A stretch of DNA of 46,664 bases from a virus. Within the stretch, counting starts at the first letter, position 1. Each line of letters starts with the position of its first letter. The notes below the pieces were generated by a model. That model was given only the letters and a program-made list of their open reading frames with translations, ran no database searches and was not told where the DNA came from. Below, one piece after another: positions 1 to 46,483 of this stretch. A program made the position numbers and the translations under genes. The stretch spans positions 1 through 46,664 of the IMG/VR virus record IMGVR_UViG_3300048597_000671. One strand, written 5' to 3'.

Positions 1-1038
1 TTATGCGGTTTTCCGCCGCTTTTCGGTGGGCCCTACCATGGGGTCCCCGGATTCTTCCCCAGGCAGGCGGCCGATCTCGATTGCGAACTCGCTCGGGTTG
101 GCATGCGTGTACCGGAAGACCATCGACGCTGTTCGCCAGCCGCCAAGCTTCTGCAGGGCCGTCAGGTTTCGCGTCGCCTGGTAAAACCGCGTTGCCCAGG
201 TATGCCGCAGATCGTGCGGCGTGAGGTCGCGGAGCCCGGCCGCGGCGACGATGGCGGCGAACCCCTTGGCGATCGGGCTGCCGCCACCCTCGGTGATCTG
301 GAAGGCCGACCCAGAGCGCGTGCGGAAGACCGGCCCGGCCCGGTGCTTGAGGTTCTTGAGCTCGGCGACCGCCCGCGGGTGGAGCGGCACCCCTCGCGCG
401 TCGCCATTCTTCGTCTTGGAGAACACGACCTGCGCGCGCTCGAGGTCGACGTCCCGCCAGTCCAGCGTCAGCGCCTCGCCTGCCCGGGCGCCGGTGTAGA
501 GCAGGAATACGACGAGGGCGCGGTAGTGCCAGTGCCGTCCGCGGCAGGCGTCAATCAGGCGCTCGCTCTCTTCCTCGGTCAGCCACCGGATCTTGCCGGG
601 CGGGAGTTTTGGCTTCCGAAACCGGATAGGGTCGCATAGGCCGGAGGCAGCCGCGTGACGCATGATGGCGGTCAGCGGGGTGTAGAGCTGCCGGGAGAGC
701 GTTGCCGGCTTCGCGGTGGGGTAGAGCGCCTTGGCGGCGCGATCGGCCGCCGACTGGTCGATGCTGGCGAGGGCAATCGTCTGGAAATGGTCGAGCAGCG
801 GCCCGACGAAGCGGGCGTTCCTGGCGTGCTCTAGGTAGAGGGCACAAGCTTCGGCGAAGGAAGTTTGACCACGCTGGCCGTATACCGAGGCGTGGGAGAG
901 CTCCCATTCGCGCTTCGCGCGGTACGCTTCGGCAAGCGCGCGGTCAGTAAGCCCCGTGCTTTCGTCAAGGCGGCGGCCGGCGACAGTGCCCCGGACATAC
1001 CAGTGCGCGGACCCGTGCCGGCGGGTGAGCTTGAGCAT
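1..1038 (-). CDS. int: Tyrosine-type site-specific integrase
   Basis: 345-aa tyrosine recombinase that would integrate and excise the phage genome at an att site. The N-terminal ~60 residues resemble an arm-binding region, followed by a SAM-like core-binding domain (about 60-140) and the catalytic domain (about 150-325). Visible catalytic residues are Arg185 in GARAGE, Lys210 in the beta-hairpin, His275 and Arg278 in HDLRH, Trp301 in GGW and the nucleophile Tyr310. It is the last gene of the leftward early operon, downstream of an excisionase-like gene whose reading frame overlaps its first 208 bases. The stop codon sits at base 1, so it is complete only by a narrow margin. Function is very secure; the target site is unknown. 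Confidence 0.97.
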   Translation of the reverse strand: MLKLTRRHGSAHWYVRGTVAGRRLDESTGLTDRALAEAYRAKREWELSHASVYGQRGQTSFAEACALYLEHARNARFVGPLLDHFQTIALASIDQSAADRAAKALYPTAKPATLSRQLYTPLTAIMRHAAASGLCDPIRFRKPKLPPGKIRWLTEEESERLIDACRGRHWHYRALVVFLLYTGARAGEALTLDWRDVDLERAQVVFSKTKNGDARGVPLHPRAVAELKNLKHRAGPVFRTRSGSAFQITEGGGSPIAKGFAAIVAAAGLRDLTPHDLRHTWATRFYQATRNLTALQKLGGWRTASMVFRYTHANPSEFAIEIGRLPGEESGDPMVGPTEKRRKTA

Positions 1039-1196
1039 TCCAAAGCCTCTCTGAGGCGGCCGACGTCGGAAGCGTCGAACCGCCAGCGGTTGCCGACCTT
1101 GAAGCCGACGGGGTGTTTCTGCAACAGGCCCTCCATCGTCCGGCGGGAGACGCGGAACTCGGCGGCGAACTCGTCGATCGTCAGGAAGGCGGTCAT
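831..1196 (-). CDS. Excisionase-like winged-helix DNA-binding protein
   Basis: 121-aa protein beginning with an excisionase/MerR-like helix-turn-helix: a LTIDEFAAEFRVSRRTM segment, then a KVGNRWRF wing, within residues 1-50. Such proteins bind att arms or operators and steer the integrase towards excision. The ATG overlaps the stop of a 30-residue membrane peptide gene (ATGA, 1193-1196), which fixes the start. The reading frame runs 208 bases into the integrase. The last ~70 residues are rich in Ser, Pro, Arg and Ala and look like read-through of high-GC sequence rather than a domain, so only the first ~52 residues are clearly protein-like. Function is inferred from the fold and its position next to int. 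Confidence 0.75.
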   Translation of the reverse strand: MTAFLTIDEFAAEFRVSRRTMEGLLQKHPVGFKVGNRWRFDASDVGRLREALECSSSPAGTGPRTGMSGALSPAAALTKARGLLTARLPKRTARSANGSSPTPRYTASVVKLPSPKLVPST

Positions 1197-1285
1197 GCCA
1201 CGCACCCCCGGACCATCAGCGCCAGGCTGACCGCCAGCACGATCCAGAACACGGCGAGGAGAGCGCGCTCGGTCCACTTGCTCAT
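1193..1285 (-). CDS. 30-residue single-pass membrane peptide
   Basis: A tiny gene encoding a short charged N-terminus (MSKWTER) followed by one hydrophobic helix (about residues 8-26) and a short tail. It is supported by coupling at both ends: its ATG overlaps the stop of the ASCH gene (ATGA, 1282-1285), and its TGA overlaps the excisionase start (1193-1196). It has no recognisable family. It is one of three tiny membrane-peptide genes in this operon. It could modulate the membrane or only serve translational coupling. Confidence 0.65.
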   Translation of the reverse strand: MSKWTERALLAVFWIVLAVSLALMVRGCVA

Positions 1286-1980
1286 GGGATGGCAAGGTCC
1301 TGTATGTGATCGCCTGCGGCAATGGTGTCGATATTCCCACGGTGGACCGCGAAAGTCAGCGCGACGACCCAGGGGTTCGCGTCCCACGCGCCGTCGCCGT
1401 TGATCTGGTCCCAAAGCTCCGCATACCCGGCGAGGTAACTGCCGAATTCGATAGGGCTGCTGTTCTCCGTGACCTGCCCGGTTTCGACGCCGACCTGCTG
1501 CACACCCTCTGCCTTGGCGTCGTCTTCGCTACAGTTCTGCAACCGCTGCACCCGCACGTCCGTCACGGCAAGCGTCAGGCGAGAAGCCCATCGCGGCATA
1601 TGGATCGAGGGCTTCCACTTCGGAATAGAGCGGTCCCACCCGGCAGCGTAGATCGCCGCCTGGCTTCCGTCCGATGGGTTGACGGCCTGCGTCACGCCAT
1701 CGGACATACGATAGGCGGACGATGGGACGAGCGCGAAGTTCTCCCTCACCCAAAGCCGGTCGCCAACCTGCCAGCGCGCATAGTCGGGGCCGATTCCTTC
1801 CACCTCGGCTTCGCTGCCAGCAAATACGCCGCCGCCGGCATTGCGCACATGCCACATCTCGGTCGGCGTCAATTCCGGCTGCGGCTTCATGATCCGCCGC
1901 GTCTGCGTCTTGGTGCCCGCCAGCAGTGCGCGCACCATCGGGGCAGAGAAGATGATCGGAAGCACCCGGCCTTCGGTCAT
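1282..1980 (-). CDS. ASCH-domain phage protein
   Basis: 232-aa protein with an ASCH-type N-terminus (residues ~8-30, including a GTKTQTRR motif) and the downstream KPSIHMPRWASR element typical of phage ASCH proteins. ASCH domains have a PUA-like barrel and are thought to bind RNA or modified nucleotides; some members are nucleoside amidohydrolases. The exact substrate here is unknown. The ATG at 1980 overlaps the stop of the DUF5131 gene (ATGA), so the two are probably translated together, and the DUF5131-ASCH neighbourhood suggests a shared job in nucleic acid modification or surveillance. An upstream extension to 2190 is open but is only the antisense frame of the neighbour. Confidence 0.8.
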   Translation of the reverse strand: MTEGRVLPIIFSAPMVRALLAGTKTQTRRIMKPQPELTPTEMWHVRNAGGGVFAGSEAEVEGIGPDYARWQVGDRLWVRENFALVPSSAYRMSDGVTQAVNPSDGSQAAIYAAGWDRSIPKWKPSIHMPRWASRLTLAVTDVRVQRLQNCSEDDAKAEGVQQVGVETGQVTENSSPIEFGSYLAGYAELWDQINGDGAWDANPWVVALTFAVHRGNIDTIAAGDHIQDLAIP

Positions 1981-2816
1981 GGCGTCGGCCTCGCGTCGTG
2001 GGTCACGCCGTCGAGCGTGCGGCCGGTCATTCCTTTTCCCCAGCGACCCACTCTTTCGCCGTCCTCGAAAGTGTGGACATGGCGCAAGACCCCGAGAGTC
2101 TCTGGCGTGCCGGGCGCCCACTCGCCCCATTGCTTGAAGAGGAACGGTACGTCTGCGGCCGCACACTGGTCGCGGAGCGCCCGCGCCCAATCCTGATGCA
2201 TCGGCCGAGCCTTCCCGCCGCTCTCGCCGCCGCAGATCACCCAGCCGATTCCGCCGTCGCGCAGCCAGGGCGTCAGGTCGATCGGCCCGAGCATCGGCTC
2301 GATCGACAGGAAGGTGAAGGGCGGGAAATACTTCGCGGCGCCCGCCAGCAGGTGCGGTATATCGCGGTCCGCCTCCGCCTGGTTGACGACGGTGCAGCCC
2401 ATGGCGGCATTGCGCGGCCAGTCGCTCCCGTAGGTGGGCCCGCGGCGCAGGATGTTTTGCGGGCGCTTCGTGAGCGGCAGCCAGATCAGGTTCGGGGTCT
2501 CGCGCATCACCTGCAGCGCATCGGCACGCATTGCGCCGACCTCGGGCCGGTTATCCCAGAAGTCCGAGAGGCTGTTCGTGAAGACGAAATCGAGCCGTCC
2601 GGCAGCCTTGGCCGCGGCGTCCAGCTTGTAGGGCAGCCGCCACGTCGCCGGGGCCGTCCGCCGGCGCGTCTCGCCTATGCCCCACGCCACATGCCCGCTG
2701 CGCTTCGCCCAGCCCTCGGCGTAGCAGTGGTCGCACCCGGGCCCGACCTTCGCGCAGCCAGTCCAGAAATTGACCGTGTGATCGGCCCATTCGATCTTCG
2801 TGTCGGCGCCCATCAT
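1977..2816 (-). CDS. DUF5131 (phage Gp37/Gp68 family) protein
   Basis: 279-aa member of the phage Gp37/Gp68 family, which is related to radical SAM enzymes. An N-terminal cysteine cluster Cys21-x6-Cys28-x2-Cys31 (ending CDHCYAE) could hold an iron-sulphur cluster. Conserved-looking segments follow: FTNSLSDFW, WLPLTKRP, LSIEPMLGPI and the GGESGGKARP stretch near residue 195. The reaction is not known for the family. It lies between a 40-residue membrane peptide gene (TGA/ATG overlap at 2813-2816) and an ASCH gene. Two consecutive ATG codons start the frame; the second is equally possible. Family assignment is strong, function open. Confidence 0.88.
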   Translation of the reverse strand: MMGADTKIEWADHTVNFWTGCAKVGPGCDHCYAEGWAKRSGHVAWGIGETRRRTAPATWRLPYKLDAAAKAAGRLDFVFTNSLSDFWDNRPEVGAMRADALQVMRETPNLIWLPLTKRPQNILRRGPTYGSDWPRNAAMGCTVVNQAEADRDIPHLLAGAAKYFPPFTFLSIEPMLGPIDLTPWLRDGGIGWVICGGESGGKARPMHQDWARALRDQCAAADVPFLFKQWGEWAPGTPETLGVLRHVHTFEDGERVGRWGKGMTGRTLDGVTHDARPTP

Positions 2817-2935: not shown

Positions 2936-3183
2936 GCTGACCCCTGCGATGGACCGCCCAAGCGCTGTTCGGCCAGGCGGGCCTTTACGCCGGAAACCAG
3001 CGCGTCGAGCACGATCTCGTCGCCACCGAGCCTCACATTGAGCAAGACGAAGCCCAGCAGGATCGATTCCAGCAGGACCAGGACGTCAGTCATCGTGCCG
3101 CCGGCGGCGAGCGTAGGGCCCATGATCTCGTGAACGAGGCGCAACACCTCGGCGTTGTGGCTGTCTGCGCCAATCTCGCTCAT
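2932..3183 (-). CDS. Hypothetical 83-aa phage protein
   Basis: Small protein, mostly helical by composition, with a hydrophobic central stretch (about residues 33-52) that could be a buried helix or a membrane segment. The ATG shares a base with the TAA of the upstream annealing-protein gene (TAATG at 3181-3185), and the stop overlaps the next ATG. No recognisable family. Position between recombination genes and the DUF5131-ASCH pair suggests an accessory early function, which is inference. Confidence 0.65.
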   Translation of the reverse strand: MSEIGADSHNAEVLRLVHEIMGPTLAAGGTMTDVLVLLESILLGFVLLNVRLGGDEIVLDALVSGVKARLAEQRLGGPSQGSA

Positions 3184-4304
3184 TATCCGCCCTGCCCGTT
3201 GAGCTCCTTGCTGACGCCGGCCACCACCGCGCGCCAGTACCGCTGGACGTCGCTGTCGGCGCCGCGCGTGGTCAGCGCCTTCGAGGTGGCGTCGTCGATG
3301 TCGGCCAGGTCGGAGAGCGAGGTTGCGGCCTTCGCCTCGGCCTCGCGCTCGGCGATGTAGGCGTCGAAGTCGGAGCTCTCGGGGGTGGAGTCTTCGGGCT
3401 TTGCTTCCTCTGCGGGCTTCTCGTCGGTCGCCGCCGGCGCGTCCGCCTTCTTCCTGGTCTGGCGGGGCTTGGCCTCGGTGGTCTTCGCCTCCTCGCGGAC
3501 CGGCTCCTTCTCGGACACCGCGACCTCGAGGACCGGGTAGGTCTCGTCGGCTGAGGACATGCCGTCGCCGATCGCCTGCAGCTCGGCGATGATCCGGGCG
3601 ATGTCGGGGGCGAGCCAGTCCTTCGAGGCCTTCCCGATGACGTTTTCGACCCGCCTGATGTCGATGCCGAGTTCGCCAAACCGGGTAACCGCGCGCTTGC
3701 GGTAGTCCTCGATCTTCAGGCCGATGCGCTCGACGAAGCTGCCCTTGGCGGCCTCGAACGCGAAATCGGCGAAGTCGGCCAGGGCGTTCACGATCACGTT
3801 GCGGATCGCCTTCGACTGGCCGATCTGGAAGACGATATCGAGCTGGCGCTCGGCGTCCATCTTGCCGGTCGTCTGAGACTTGCGCTGCTGGAAGGCCCGG
3901 GTCGTCGTGAACCCGCTCTCGAAGTCGCGGAAGCGGGCGTAAAAGACCCAGTGCGTCACGGTTTCGCTGACGCGCAGATCGACGTCGCAGTTGCCGTAGA
4001 GGCGGGCGACCGCCATCGCGCAGTCGATCGAGGGGCCTTCGACGACTCCCTTGCTGCCGTCGCGGTTCTTCGTCGGCCAGCGGTAGTACCAGCGTTGGCC
4101 GGCGGCGTTCGCCATCACCTTCAGCTTGGCGAGGATCCGGGCCTCGTCGCGGTGGACGGCAACCTGGACGGCGCCCTGCGGGGCGGCCATCGCGCCGCCA
4201 CTCGGCAAGGCAAGCGCGCCGCCGCTAAAGCCCTCGTCCTCATTGGACGCGATCTGCCCGCGGGCGGCGATCATCTGGTCGGCATAGCTGTCGGAAATGC
4301 TCAT
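3183..4304 (-). CDS. Putative phage single-strand annealing/recombination protein
   Basis: 373-aa protein. The N-terminal half (residues ~40-230) contains a GPSIDCAMAVARLYGN-type motif and a following KAIRNVIVNAL segment like those I recall from phage annealing proteins of the RecT/Redbeta kind; such proteins coat and anneal single-stranded DNA during phage recombination. The C-terminal third is low-complexity, acidic and Glu/Ala/Pro rich, as often seen in DNA-binding phage proteins, with a short helical end. The start at 4304 is fixed by an ATGA overlap with the coiled-coil gene, which would be its partner. The annealing role is a similarity-based inference; the family could simply be uncharacterised. 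Confidence 0.6.
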   Translation of the reverse strand: MSISDSYADQMIAARGQIASNEDEGFSGGALALPSGGAMAAPQGAVQVAVHRDEARILAKLKVMANAAGQRWYYRWPTKNRDGSKGVVEGPSIDCAMAVARLYGNCDVDLRVSETVTHWVFYARFRDFESGFTTTRAFQQRKSQTTGKMDAERQLDIVFQIGQSKAIRNVIVNALADFADFAFEAAKGSFVERIGLKIEDYRKRAVTRFGELGIDIRRVENVIGKASKDWLAPDIARIIAELQAIGDGMSSADETYPVLEVAVSEKEPVREEAKTTEAKPRQTRKKADAPAATDEKPAEEAKPEDSTPESSDFDAYIAEREAEAKAATSLSDLADIDDATSKALTTRGADSDVQRYWRAVVAGVSKELNGQGG

Positions 4305-5425
4305 CGTGTGGCTGCCTCGTTGATCTGGAAAATCTTGATGCCGGCGAGCGGCTGGTTGCCCTCGCTGTCGGGGCGGACGCCGTTGCGGATCGCGGCGTTG
4401 ACGGCCTTGTCGAAGGCCTCGGCGCTGAAATACGCTTTCAGCTGGTTGAGATTGATCGCGTCCCGGTCTTCGACCTTGAAGACCCACTTCGCCCGCAGGG
4501 ACGAGAGCGCGCCGAGTTCGCTGCGGGTGCGAGAGAGTTCGGCCGGCTTGGCCATGGCCAGCTTTTCGGCGGCGATGCGGCGTGCTTCGGCCTCCTCGGC
4601 GCGCTGGGCCTCAAGGGCCTCCTGGTCGGCACGGCGCTGGGCGTCCTCGCGGGCCTCCTGCGCCCGGCGCTCTGCGTCTTCGGCGTCGCGCTTCGCCCGG
4701 GCCTCGGCCTCCACCCGCTCGCGCTCGGCGCGCTCGGCGGCCTCCCGGCGCATACGATCCGCCTCGGCCTGCGCCTTCTCGCGGTTTGCATCACTCTGGC
4801 GCCGCTTCGACTCCTCCGCCTCGGCGCGCGCGTTGGCCTCGGCCAGCTCGCGGCGGTGGCGTTCCTCGCGTTCGCGGGCTTCGCGTTCGGCCTGTTCCTT
4901 CTGCCGGCGGGCGGCCTCTTCGGCCTGACGGGCGCGCTCCTCGGCCTCCCGGCGGGCCTGCTCGGCCTTGCGGCGCTCCTCTTCGGCGCGGCGGGCTTCT
5001 TCGGCCTGACGCCGCTCTTCGGCCTGGCGGGCCTCGCGCTCGGCCTGGGCCTTCGCCTCGAGGAATGCGGTGACCTTCTTGTTCACGAAGGTCTTGGCCT
5101 TCTCGAGCTTCTCCTTCACCCCGTTGAACACGCCGTCGACGTCGCGGCCGGCGCTCAGGAAGGGCTCCTTCTCGGCGACGCGCGAGACGTCCAGCACCTT
5201 GATGCTGGCCGATATCTGCTTGATGAGCTCGCTCACCTTGCCGAGCGTGTCGTCGTTCTCGATCGAGGGAACCCGGTCGACCGCGGCGAGCAGTTCCTCG
5301 GCGCGGCGCAGGATGGCGGCGTACTGCTCGAGCAGCATTTCGCGGAGGTTCTTGGCACTGTTGTGCCCGAGTCCGATCGGCCTGAAGCCGTCGCCGTCGA
5401 GGCTCATGTCTATGGCTGCACTCAT
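4301..5425 (-). CDS. Long coiled-coil early phage protein
   Basis: 374-aa protein with three parts: an N-terminal helical region (1-115) including a FLSAGRDVDGVFNGVKEKLE segment, a very long Glu/Arg/Ala coiled coil (about 118-290), and a compact C-terminal domain (about 295-374) ending in GIKIFQINEAATR. Phage proteins of this build usually sit beside annealing proteins, as here (ATGA overlap at 4301-4304), and are thought to help recombination or replication. A good Shine-Dalgarno, AAGGAGGAC, lies about 9 bases before the ATG at 5425, and the upstream gene stops inside it. The coiled coil is unambiguous; the role is inferred. Confidence 0.75.
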   Translation of the reverse strand: MSAAIDMSLDGDGFRPIGLGHNSAKNLREMLLEQYAAILRRAEELLAAVDRVPSIENDDTLGKVSELIKQISASIKVLDVSRVAEKEPFLSAGRDVDGVFNGVKEKLEKAKTFVNKKVTAFLEAKAQAEREARQAEERRQAEEARRAEEERRKAEQARREAEERARQAEEAARRQKEQAEREAREREERHRRELAEANARAEAEESKRRQSDANREKAQAEADRMRREAAERAERERVEAEARAKRDAEDAERRAQEAREDAQRRADQEALEAQRAEEAEARRIAAEKLAMAKPAELSRTRSELGALSSLRAKWVFKVEDRDAINLNQLKAYFSAEAFDKAVNAAIRNGVRPDSEGNQPLAGIKIFQINEAATR

Positions 5426-17245: not shown

Positions 17246-18451
17246 ATGCTCAAGAGCGAGTCTTTGTCCGTCGAGTGGCGGGCGATCGAAACTGTGCGCC
17301 CGTACCCGGGCAACCCTCGGATCATCCCCGAGACGGCGATCGACAAGGTGGCGGCGTCCATCCGGGAATTCGGATGGCGTCAGCCAATCGTTGTCGACGA
17401 GGGCGGGGAAATCCTCGTCGGCCATACCCGGCGCCTGGCAGCAATGCGGCTTGGCATCGCAGAGGTGCCGGTGCACGTCGCCGTCGGCCTCAGCGATGAG
17501 CAGCGTCGTGCATACCGCCTCGCCGACAATCGGACGGGCGAGGAGAGTCGCTGGGACCTGAAAGCCCTTGGCCTTGAGTTGCAGGGCCTAGGCGACGCCG
17601 GTTTCGAACTGGCGCTGCTCGGGTTCGATAGACCGGAGCTGATCAGCCTGGAGCCTCGACCCGAGCCGGCTGCCGACCCGGACGACGTGCCGCCGGCGCC
17701 GATCGAGCCTCTGACGCAGCTGGGCGACGTATGGATCCTCGGCGAGCACCGCATCATCTGTGGCGACAGCACGTCACGCGAAACCGTTGACCGCCTGCTC
17801 GCCGGCGACAAGCCGCGGCTGATGGTGACCGACCCGCCCTATGGGGTGGAATACGATGCTGACTGGCGCAATCGAGTCGTCCGCGCCAATGGCTCGAAGG
17901 TGCAGGCCCGCGCCGTCGGCAAGGTTCTGAACGATGACCGCGATGACTGGCGCGAGGCTTGGGCGCTGTTCCCCGGCAGCGTCGCCTATGTCTGGCACGC
18001 CGGGTCCCACGCGCTCGAGGTGGCTGTCAGCCTGCAGGCGGCCGGCTTCCTGATCCGCACCCAGATCATTTGGGGCAAGAACCAGCTGGTGATCAGCCGC
18101 GGGCACTATCACCCGCAGCACGAGCCGTGCTGGTACGCGGTGCGCGAGGGCGATACGGCCGGCTGGACCGGTGGGCGCAAGCAATCGACGCTCTGGTCGA
18201 TCGCCAAACCGCAGAAGTCGGAAACGGGCCACTCGACCCAGAAGCCCGTCGAGTGCATGGCCCGGCCGATCAGGAACAATTCGCGCGCCGGCGATCTAGT
18301 CTACGAGCCGTTCAGCGGGTCGGGGACCACCATCATCGCATGCGAGCAGGAGCGCAGGCGGTGCCAAGCCATCGAGCTCAGCCCCGCTTACGTCGACGTT
18401 GCGGTCCGCCGGTGGGAGAGTTTCACCGGTCGAACTGCATCTAGGGCTTAG
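17246..18451 (+). CDS. ParB-like nuclease domain fused to DNA methyltransferase
   Basis: 401-aa fusion. Residues ~8-100 are a ParB/Srx-like domain (PYPGNPRII, GWRQPIVVDEGGEILVGHTR). Residues ~165-395 are a beta-class amino-methyltransferase with GEHRIICGDS, catalytic DPPYG at 196-200, and the SAM-binding FSGSGTT at 356-362. ParB-methyltransferase fusions are common in prophages, where they modify phage DNA and may protect it from restriction. It begins the rightward late block. The target sequence cannot be told from the protein alone. Confidence 0.92.
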   Translation: MLKSESLSVEWRAIETVRPYPGNPRIIPETAIDKVAASIREFGWRQPIVVDEGGEILVGHTRRLAAMRLGIAEVPVHVAVGLSDEQRRAYRLADNRTGEESRWDLKALGLELQGLGDAGFELALLGFDRPELISLEPRPEPAADPDDVPPAPIEPLTQLGDVWILGEHRIICGDSTSRETVDRLLAGDKPRLMVTDPPYGVEYDADWRNRVVRANGSKVQARAVGKVLNDDRDDWREAWALFPGSVAYVWHAGSHALEVAVSLQAAGFLIRTQIIWGKNQLVISRGHYHPQHEPCWYAVREGDTAGWTGGRKQSTLWSIAKPQKSETGHSTQKPVECMARPIRNNSRAGDLVYEPFSGSGTTIIACEQERRRCQAIELSPAYVDVAVRRWESFTGRTASRA

Positions 18452-43651: not shown

Positions 43652-44539
43652 TCAGGGAAATGACGCAACGAACCCGTCGAAATACTGTTTGCGAACGCAG
43701 GTCTTAAGCGGCCCCCGGAGCTCCTTCACCTTGAGGGCACCTTCAGGTTCAGGATCGATGATTATCAGTTTTGCGCTCGTTTTGATCAGCGGGTCCCAGA
43801 TATGCTTGTCATGAGGGATATAGGCCGTGCCGACCACAAAAACTTCGTCGGCCGCTAACGCGGCGTTTGCGAAGTTCCGCTGCGCCATAGCGATGACTTC
43901 AGGTGTAGTGCGCGTATTCTTGCCTTTCGAGTAGATCGACATGCAAGGAGAGAAGCTGGTAGCTCGGCTCCATATTCCGCGAGCGACGCCGGGAGTTTTC
44001 ACGACGATAGGGGCGTTAATCTCGGCTTGGTTTCGTCGCCCTCCGGCGTGCTCAAAATTCTCGATGGGGATATCGGGCACAAAATGCGCCGCACCATGGG
44101 GACGATATATGAGCGGTGATTCACCGGTGTTTTCGTCGTCGTAGCGCAAGCTGCCGAAGCGGCGCATGACCGCCACGTCGAGCATCACGTCGTAGTTCAA
44201 CGTTGCATAGGTAACACGGCGGTCCGATGAGGCCACCTGATCGATGAGGATGTGATATAGATTGTTCTCGCGCGGCTGAAACGTCAGAAAATACACTGCC
44301 ATCGCCCGCATCAACTCGCTTGTTCGCTCCTCAAGGTTTTTTTGGACCCATTCAAAGCCGGGCTCGAATAGCCCGTCTCTTTTGAAAGCGACTTTGGCGA
44401 TTTCAGGTAAGTCCCGCCATACTGAGAAATGCATCTCGAGTTCCGTAAAGAGGTGGCGGCCTAAAGGCGGGGGGTAGGGGACGCATGCGCCGCTGCCAAA
44501 ACTGGCACCTGCACCGAATAAAAAAAGTGTTCTGGCCAT
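43652..44539 (-). CDS. SIR2-like domain protein, probable anti-phage cargo
   Basis: 295-aa protein of the SIR2/sirtuin-like NAD-binding kind. Visible are the N-terminal nucleotide loop GAGASFGSG (residues 9-17), the TLNYD motif (near 112-116), PHG (near 148-150, likely catalytic His) and a C-terminal Rossmann part (FVVGTAYIP and LIIIDPEPEG). SIR2 domains of bacterial defence proteins hydrolyse NAD on infection and stop the cell. It stands alone, leftward, behind the lysis cassette, and is clearly richer in A/T than its neighbours, so it is probably a horizontally gained moron. No partner (HerA, Argonaute) is next to it. Confidence 0.85.
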   Translation of the reverse strand: MARTLFLFGAGASFGSGACVPYPPPLGRHLFTELEMHFSVWRDLPEIAKVAFKRDGLFEPGFEWVQKNLEERTSELMRAMAVYFLTFQPRENNLYHILIDQVASSDRRVTYATLNYDVMLDVAVMRRFGSLRYDDENTGESPLIYRPHGAAHFVPDIPIENFEHAGGRRNQAEINAPIVVKTPGVARGIWSRATSFSPCMSIYSKGKNTRTTPEVIAMAQRNFANAALAADEVFVVGTAYIPHDKHIWDPLIKTSAKLIIIDPEPEGALKVKELRGPLKTCVRKQYFDGFVASFP

Positions 44540-44940: not shown

Positions 44941-45477
44941 ATGACCCTCATCTCCGAAGGATACCGGGACCTTAATCGGCAGCTCCACGCCGAAAACCCA
45001 AAATACGGTACCTCAGGCGCCAAGTTTGCCGAGCGGGTTCGCCTTATGGCCCTCGCGATGGGCAACCCCACCATCCTGGACTATGGCGCCGGCAAGGGGC
45101 TGCTGGCGCAGGCCCTGCCGCAGCTACGCGTCGCCGAGTACGACCCTGCCGTCCCGGGAAAGGATGCACCGCCGGTGCCTGCCGATTTGGTCGTGTGCAC
45201 CGACGTCCTGGAGCACATCGAGCCCGAGTGTCTTGGCGCAATTCTTGAAGATTTGCGGCGCCTGATGCGAGGTCGGGGGTTCTTCAACATAGCGACCCGT
45301 CCCGCTGTCAAGCATCTCGCGGATGGTCGAAACGCCCACCTGATCGTTCAACCGGCCGCCTGGTGGCGCGCGCAACTAGAGCCCCTATTCAAAATCCAGA
45401 CATGGGAGCCCGTGGGGGAGGGTGCGGTCAACTGCGAGGTGACGCCGCTCCCGATAGGGCAGCATTCAGAAGGTTGA
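44941..45477 (+). CDS. SAM-dependent methyltransferase
   Basis: 178-aa class I methyltransferase: SAM-binding LDYGAGKG (about residues 45-52), and CTDVLEHIEPE (about 82-92) as motif II/post-I region. The small substrate is unknown; the motif pattern is like those of sugar or small-molecule methyltransferases. It converges on a glycosyltransferase-like gene and overlaps its end by 50 bases, so the pair may act on surface sugars (inference). Confidence 0.85.
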   Translation: MTLISEGYRDLNRQLHAENPKYGTSGAKFAERVRLMALAMGNPTILDYGAGKGLLAQALPQLRVAEYDPAVPGKDAPPVPADLVVCTDVLEHIEPECLGAILEDLRRLMRGRGFFNIATRPAVKHLADGRNAHLIVQPAAWWRAQLEPLFKIQTWEPVGEGAVNCEVTPLPIGQHSEG

Positions 45478-46483
45478 TGGCTGTCAGTAGTGCGATGGGC
45501 TGTTCGGGCGAGGGGCGCACGAGGGTCGTCCGCGGATACCAGGCCACATCGTCTCCGAACGCCGGCCAAATGAGGTGTTCTTTCGCGTCAAGGACAACAT
45601 AGGTTAGCGCCCCCAACGCGCCTGCGAGATGCGCCGTCGTGTTGCTTATTGTGAGAATGGCATCCATGGCGGCAATCTGCGCGGCCAAACCATCGATATC
45701 GTTGAGGGCGTCGATGGCGGGATCATGGACGATGTGGGGTCCGCCCGCCGCTGCAATTGCGGCTATGTGCTCGTCAACGTCGCCATACTGCAGCGAAAAA
45801 TAGGTCGCGCCGTTTCGTTCCTTGAGCGCCGCGCCCCACACCCCCAAATCCGGTAGATCCTTGCGCTTGTTGGTGCTTGCCCAACTGATCCCGATCCAGG
45901 GCCGCGGATATTGCGCGTAACGCGTCGTGCAGCGGTCAATCGCAGCGGGGTCCGGGGCGAGCGGCCGGAAGCCATCGCGGATTTGTGGGCCGAATGCGCC
46001 GCAGTGCTGCATCAGGGTTTCCCAGCTCGCCATGCGGTCGAAAGCGCCGCGCGGGTCAGCGGGTGACTGGTCGGTCCATGTCACGCCGGGAAAGCTACGC
46101 TGCACCAGTTCGAGCAAGCGACGCTCAACAACGGCCGTTACCGCGCGGACCCGTCTCGCTGCGACAGTGGCCAAATGTGCAAGGCGGAGGACAGACCCGA
46201 TATGCCTGATCCGCTGGACGATGAGCAGGCGGTGATCGCCCCAAGTGCCGTCCCACTCGGGCAGCGTGCCAGGGACACTAAGCAGGCCACCGCGCGCCAG
46301 AAGTCGACCGGCGCGCCCGTAGGCTCGGAGGCGTTCAAGTTGCATGCCCGTTCGCAATAGCAACTGCTTATCACCAGCCAGTAGGGCATCCTCGGCCAAC
46401 TTGTCGGCAAGCGTTTCCGCTTCGGCAAAGTCCTTCCGCGTCAGAGCATTTTCCAGCTCCGTGAACTGCTCTTGGTGTTGCAT
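45428..46483 (-). CDS. GT9-like glycosyltransferase-type protein
   Basis: 351-aa protein. The N-terminal ~70 residues are helical (FTELENALTRKDFAEAETLADKLAED) with TPR-like look; the C-terminal half (about 190-340) has WIGISWASTNKRKDLPD, YFSLQYGDVDEHIA, DAILTISNTTAHLAGALG and DVAWYPRTTLVR, as in the GT9/heptosyltransferase-like domains of tetratricopeptide glycosyltransferases. Likely acts on lipopolysaccharide or another surface glycan. It could be a host gene or serotype-changing cargo; that is not decidable from this window. Confidence 0.78.
   Translation of the reverse strand: MQHQEQFTELENALTRKDFAEAETLADKLAEDALLAGDKQLLLRTGMQLERLRAYGRAGRLLARGGLLSVPGTLPEWDGTWGDHRLLIVQRIRHIGSVLRLAHLATVAARRVRAVTAVVERRLLELVQRSFPGVTWTDQSPADPRGAFDRMASWETLMQHCGAFGPQIRDGFRPLAPDPAAIDRCTTRYAQYPRPWIGISWASTNKRKDLPDLGVWGAALKERNGATYFSLQYGDVDEHIAAIAAAGGPHIVHDPAIDALNDIDGLAAQIAAMDAILTISNTTAHLAGALGALTYVVLDAKEHLIWPAFGDDVAWYPRTTLVRPSPEQPIALLTAINLLNAALSGAASPRS

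Follow-up and report, generated by a model that had tools for sequence, protein, structure and literature searches.

An early phage gene for a DUF5131 (Gp37/Gp68) protein and a gene for an ASCH-fold protein stand next to each other in the IMG/VR virus record IMGVR_UViG_3300048597_000671, and their arrangement raises the question of whether the two proteins work together or only share a location. DUF5131 proteins are common in both phages and bacteria, and to our knowledge no function has been assigned to them. The window, by which we mean the whole stretch of DNA analyzed here, is the complete record of 46,664 bases. A repressor of the S24-peptidase type, an excisionase-like gene, and an integrase identify it as a temperate provirus. 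The pair belongs to an operon with the following features:

1..1038, minus strand: tyrosine integrase, last gene of the operon (PF00589, E = 1e-28)
1035..1196, minus strand: HTH/excisionase-like gene, downstream of the pair (PF12728, E = 1e-7; TIGR01764 excise, below cutoff)
1282..1980, minus strand: ASCH-fold gene, 232 aa (phrog_874; AF2/Foldseek; hhalign to YqfB)
1977..1980, minus strand: ATGA stop/start overlap of the DUF5131 and ASCH genes (from the sequence)
1977..2813, minus strand: DUF5131 (Gp37/Gp68) gene, 278 aa (PF07505, phrog_2045)
3183..4304, minus strand: upstream operon gene (match to phrog_3657)
4301..5425, minus strand: upstream operon gene with a weak match to an exonuclease family (phrog_10477)

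The first-pass annotation had described two ORFs joined by ATGA, and we found both on the minus strand, with the ATGA at 1980-1977. The ASCH gene runs from an ATG at 1980-1978 to a stop at 1282. The DUF5131 gene stops at 1977, and its start codons are ATGATG at 2816-2811; homologues conserve the second ATG (2813), and use of the first, at 2816, would give a protein of 279 aa. Upstream of the pair, operon genes start at 5425, 4304, 3183, and 2935, and downstream of the ASCH gene there are a possible small ORF, the HTH/excisionase-like gene, and then the tyrosine integrase. The presence of the last two genes makes the label "integrase operon" correct. The same annotation had argued from the ATGA overlap that the two proteins act together, and we rejected this argument because almost all junctions in the operon overlap, with ATGA at 4301, 2932, 2813, 1977, 1282, and 1193 and TAATG at 3183; the overlap between the DUF5131 and ASCH genes is not special.

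Evidence that the two genes belong together comes from other loci. We assembled a set of 112 viral and 80 genome loci, chosen for DUF5131 alone, in which phrog_874 ASCH genes were co-located in 33 loci before de-duplication. After de-duplication, 24 of 32 such genes lay less than 1 kb from DUF5131, compared with 5.6 expected (P = 1e-12), and in loci selected for ASCH, 15 of 21 pairs lay within 1 kb, compared with 4.6 expected (P = 1e-6); the expected counts assume uniform placement in the same loci. Co-occurrence of the two families, which had been proposed as a check on the pairing, is thus beyond chance. Among the 43 plus-strand pairs less than 1 kb apart, DUF5131 is the first gene in 37, and the two genes share 1 or 4 nt in 20. 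DUF5131 is the gene found most often directly upstream of ASCH, and the phrog_874 ASCH gene is found most often directly downstream of phage DUF5131. We did not count the same-strand result (32/32) as further evidence, since a common strand is usual among early phage genes. At the level of whole viral records, ASCH was present in 13 of 50 records with DUF5131 (a fourteenth, weak match was excluded) and DUF5131 in 11 of 50 records with ASCH, compared with 2 of 32 for each family in control phages related by terminase or portal; with this small control, the differences are weakly significant (Fisher p = 0.04 and 0.07). About a quarter of phage DUF5131 genes take part in the pairing; the other three-quarters or so have no recognizable ASCH neighbor. 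The pairing is therefore facultative, not obligatory, and none of the loci examined encodes a DUF5131-ASCH fusion protein.

The phrog_874 family is not the only ASCH-type neighbor of DUF5131. When all subfamilies are counted, an ASCH-type gene is adjacent in 29 of 106 nonredundant viral loci and 14 of 77 genome loci (43/183). A PF04266-type ASCH family with the motif K-x2-E-x-R, which has Glu where the Thr nucleophile stands, adjoins DUF5131 in 12 loci, and short K-x2-T-x-R ASCH-type proteins also adjoin it. Rhizobium phage RHph_N28_2 has a gene annotated "ASCH domain-containing" that shares 1 nt with the DUF5131 gene EVB88_051, with an integrase four genes further on; the short K-x2-T-x-R member from this phage had no Pfam match. 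TcmP has a different distribution, and is adjacent to DUF5131 in 1 of 106 viral loci and 27 of 77 genome loci. No locus among the 183 has both an ASCH-type and a TcmP neighbor, and besides these two types there is no other dominant family at the downstream position. The TcmP profile (the PDC-M30A/M41A component) had no match anywhere in the window. In loci L008, L022, L028, L122, L182, and L212, the gene directly behind DUF5131 encodes a member of a short ASCH-like family with the K-x2-T-x-R pattern, and this pattern recurs in two further proteins at that position (L174:4323-4688 and L254:1134-1586).

To describe the history of the pair, we mapped partner states onto a FastTree phylogeny of 183 DUF5131 proteins. 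For the 24 loci with a phrog_874 partner, 21 changes of state were required (random mean 22.9), and for the 28 loci with a TcmP partner, 7 (random mean 26.5). ASCH and DUF5131 distances were uncorrelated (Mantel r = 0.10, p = 0.18), and co-inheritance of the pair is therefore unsupported. Because the ASCH state is scattered on the DUF5131 tree and the distances are uncorrelated, the pair appears to have been reassembled repeatedly, not inherited as a unit. Such repeated assembly fits selection for the combination, and it also fits repeated exchange of cargo at an integrase-proximal site.

The reading that we favor, with a probability of about 0.4, is that the DUF5131 and ASCH genes, both early phage genes, make up a facultative module whose two proteins act on a modified base or nucleotide. 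We rate it no higher because reassembly can be explained by selection or by cargo exchange, and because integrase is the commonest neighbor of DUF5131 and of ASCH. We consider it only slightly less likely that both genes are separate accessories that collect in the early, integrase-proximal variable region and have a site in common but not a function. The shared integrase neighbor, the reassembly of the pairs, the overlaps at nearly every junction of the window operon, and the methyltransferase genes that are also common neighbors are all consistent with independent cargo, whereas cargo alone does not readily account for an excess that is concentrated below 1 kb and at overlaps of 1 and 4 nt with a preferred gene order, for the occupation of the same position by several different ASCH subfamilies, or for a downstream position without any other dominant family.

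Searches of Pfam, PF04266 included, and of NCBIfam gave no match for the window ASCH protein itself, but it matches phrog_874 (E = 5e-65), and 7 of 54 relatives match PF04266 weakly (best E = 0.001). In Foldseek searches with its AF2 model (pLDDT 87.5), the top eight PDB matches were all ASCH or ASCH-like proteins, with probabilities up to 0.99 and a modest best E of 0.013, and they included structures of E. coli YqfB, both alone and together with N4-acetylcytidine (ac4C). The identification of the protein as ASCH is based mainly on this predicted fold, which is of the ASCH/PUA type. Searching the PDB by sequence, with individual proteins and also with profiles, gave no match. When the phrog_874-family profile was compared with YqfB (sequence from the MG1655 record) by hhalign (E = 0.0012), K21, T24, R26, and E74 of YqfB were paired with K24, T27, R29, and E158 of the window protein. 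These four residues are invariant in 54 aligned relatives, and 168 of 169 relatives retain the full Lys-Thr-Arg-Glu tetrad, with K, T, and E each present in 174 of 174. In YqfB, mutation of Lys21, Thr24, Arg26, or Glu74 abolishes or strongly lowers activity, and the enzyme acts on free ac4C (PMC6972931). The ASCH fold and the K/T/R/E residues are thus common to the window protein and YqfB (b2900, N4-acetylcytidine amidohydrolase), but the relationship is remote, with lengths of 232 and 103 aa, about 10% structural identity, and Asp in the window protein at the position of YqfB His70. The ASCH fold is also shared with the ZmASCH ribonuclease, whose nuclease residues are Tyr47, Lys53, and Ser128 (PMC5615036).

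The first-pass annotation had taken the ASCH protein to be a recognizer of RNA or modified nucleosides. Its grouping with proteins that handle modified nucleosides holds, and the fold suits a recognizer, but because the full set of YqfB catalytic residues is present, the partner may be an enzyme and not a recognizer alone. We consider it unlikely that the ASCH protein is a noncatalytic reader or adaptor that brings DUF5131 to RNA or DNA with a modified base, in the manner of PUA/EVE-type domains. That role would suit the PUA/ASCH fold, the Glu that replaces the Thr nucleophile in the second ASCH subfamily beside DUF5131 (K-x2-E-x-R), and the prediction that EVE/ASCH domains are base readers (PMC7641849); it is difficult to reconcile with the complete YqfB site that phrog_874 retains and with the observation that YqfB-type proteins did not bind nucleic acid when assayed (PMC9599836).

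The window DUF5131 protein is a member of PF07505 (E = 7.6e-70; 235.6 bits against a gathering score of 28.9). It also matches TIGR04471 (rSAM_mob_pairA) with E = 1.8e-9, and as the score of 37.4 bits is far below the family cutoff of 355, the protein is homologous to this family but not a member of it. TIGR04471, "radical SAM mobile pair protein A," was matched by all 38 aligned DUF5131 homologues (best 2.7e-19) over most of its length, and Pfam Radical_SAM (PF04055) was matched by none of the 38 at E ≤ 1. Proteins of the TIGR04471 family are likewise encoded on mobile elements and are named for having a partner. The partner in that case does not belong to ASCH but to a second radical SAM family. 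The PADLOC candidate models PDC-M30B and PDC-M41B also match the window protein (E = 2e-43 and 8e-43).

The annotation had called DUF5131 radical SAM-related and had named three cysteines, which are residues 21, 28, and 31 counted from the first Met and 20, 27, and 30 counted from the second. Their CX6CX2C spacing is found in 200 of about 205 homologues that cover the site and differs from the canonical CX3CX2C; noncanonical cysteine spacings do occur in the radical SAM superfamily. G195-G196-E197, S170/E172-P173, K116-R117, and K227 are invariant across the same homologues (about 205). The AF2 model (pLDDT 93.5) is an alpha/beta protein in which cysteines 20–30 lie between a strand and the first helix. 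Its top Foldseek match in the PDB is a viperin-like enzyme (probability 1.00, yet with a TM score of 0.44, which is a match at the level of the fold only); UVDE endonucleases rank second to fourth, and several radical SAM enzymes are also among the top matches. Viperin and the prokaryotic viperins have a radical SAM fold, but they differ from DUF5131 in cysteine spacing, the likeness is limited to a TM score of about 0.4 and 14% identity, and ddhNTP synthesis has no support in DUF5131. The fold and the weak TIGR04471 match thus speak for the earlier assignment, and the Pfam Radical_SAM result and the cysteine spacing do not. With TIGR04471 below cutoff, no Pfam Radical_SAM match, and a fold-level match, a radical-SAM-like DUF5131 is well motivated but not proved.

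DUF5131 might instead be some other metal-dependent TIM-barrel protein, for example a nuclease-like one, and this could explain the missing Radical_SAM match, the high rank of the UVDE structures, and the noncanonical cysteine spacing. We regard it as improbable, given that every one of the 38 homologues matches TIGR04471, that three near-invariant cysteines lie in the loop that precedes the barrel's first helix, and that the top fold match is a viperin-like enzyme.

If DUF5131 and the ASCH protein do form a module, DUF5131 would most likely be a noncanonical radical-SAM-type enzyme, a TIM barrel with an Fe-S cluster bound by CX6CX2C, that uses SAM chemistry to alter a nucleotide or a base within nucleic acid. 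The ASCH protein would most likely hydrolyze, in the manner of YqfB, or else bind a pyrimidine that is N-acylated or modified in another way, with its Lys-Thr-Arg-Glu site acting on the same base as DUF5131; because of YqfB, cytosine is the best guess for this base. The pair might write the modification or erase it. A phage module could plausibly modify or unmodify bases in defense, counter-defense, or superinfection exclusion, and a role in nucleotide metabolism can also be envisaged. The idea that the ASCH protein serves in the salvage of free nucleosides, converting ac4C to cytidine for phage nucleotide recycling, and has a substrate unrelated to DUF5131, draws on the use of free ac4C by YqfB and on homologues without nucleic acid binding (PMC6972931, PMC9599836), but it leaves the recurrent DUF5131 adjacency unexplained, the window protein is much larger (232 versus 103 aa), and we think it the least likely of these possibilities.

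The proposed two-protein module has a bacterial counterpart in the TcmP-DUF5131 pair (TIGR04474 with PF07505), which has the same DUF5131 family, the same CX6CX2C motif, and a directly adjacent partner gene. It differs from the window pair in that its partner is TcmP and it occurs mostly on bacterial genome contigs, whereas the window pair has an ASCH partner and lies in a provirus. TcmP and DUF5131 match PADLOC PDC-M41A/B and PDC-M30A/B, which are candidate systems that have not been validated; PDC-M30 is listed as an unvalidated candidate defense system (PMC10855318). On a bolder and rather doubtful reading, phages have repeatedly assembled radical-SAM-type DUF5131 proteins and ASCH hydrolases into a base write/erase module that mirrors the bacterial TcmP-DUF5131 candidate and perhaps counters or imitates it. 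In the open-access papers searched, we found no account of a DUF5131-ASCH pairing, nor any mention of DUF5131 by name. The ASCH proteins are a second recurrent type of partner for DUF5131, besides TcmP. Because they are related to a family of ASCH enzymes whose substrate is known, the pairing provides a concrete chemical hypothesis (acylated cytosine) together with a named phage pair. If this is true, a radical-SAM-type enzyme would take part in the modification of nucleic acid by phages and be tied to a candidate antiphage system.

DNA methylase genes, including those for cytosine-5 methyltransferases, are frequent neighbors of both families (within 3.5 kb). We considered a link to DNA hypermodification through a neighboring cytosine-5 methyltransferase and dropped it, because the "C5MT" neighbor cluster mixes methylase types and in the window itself there is only a ParB-N6_N4 methyltransferase fusion, distant from the pair. 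This fusion, at 17246-18451 on the plus strand, joins a ParB N-terminal domain to an N6/N4 DNA methylase (PF02195 and PF01555) and immediately precedes the terminase region. Toward the right end of the provirus, a gene at 43652-44539 stands alone on the opposite (minus) strand and may be defense cargo; its protein, which starts MARTLFLFGAGASFGSG, has a SIR2/Rossmann-like glycine-rich start and no Pfam match. At the right end of the window, a 351-aa protein without a match (45428-46483, minus strand) and a SAM-dependent methyltransferase (PF13489; 44941-45477, plus strand) may each be cargo or host sequence.
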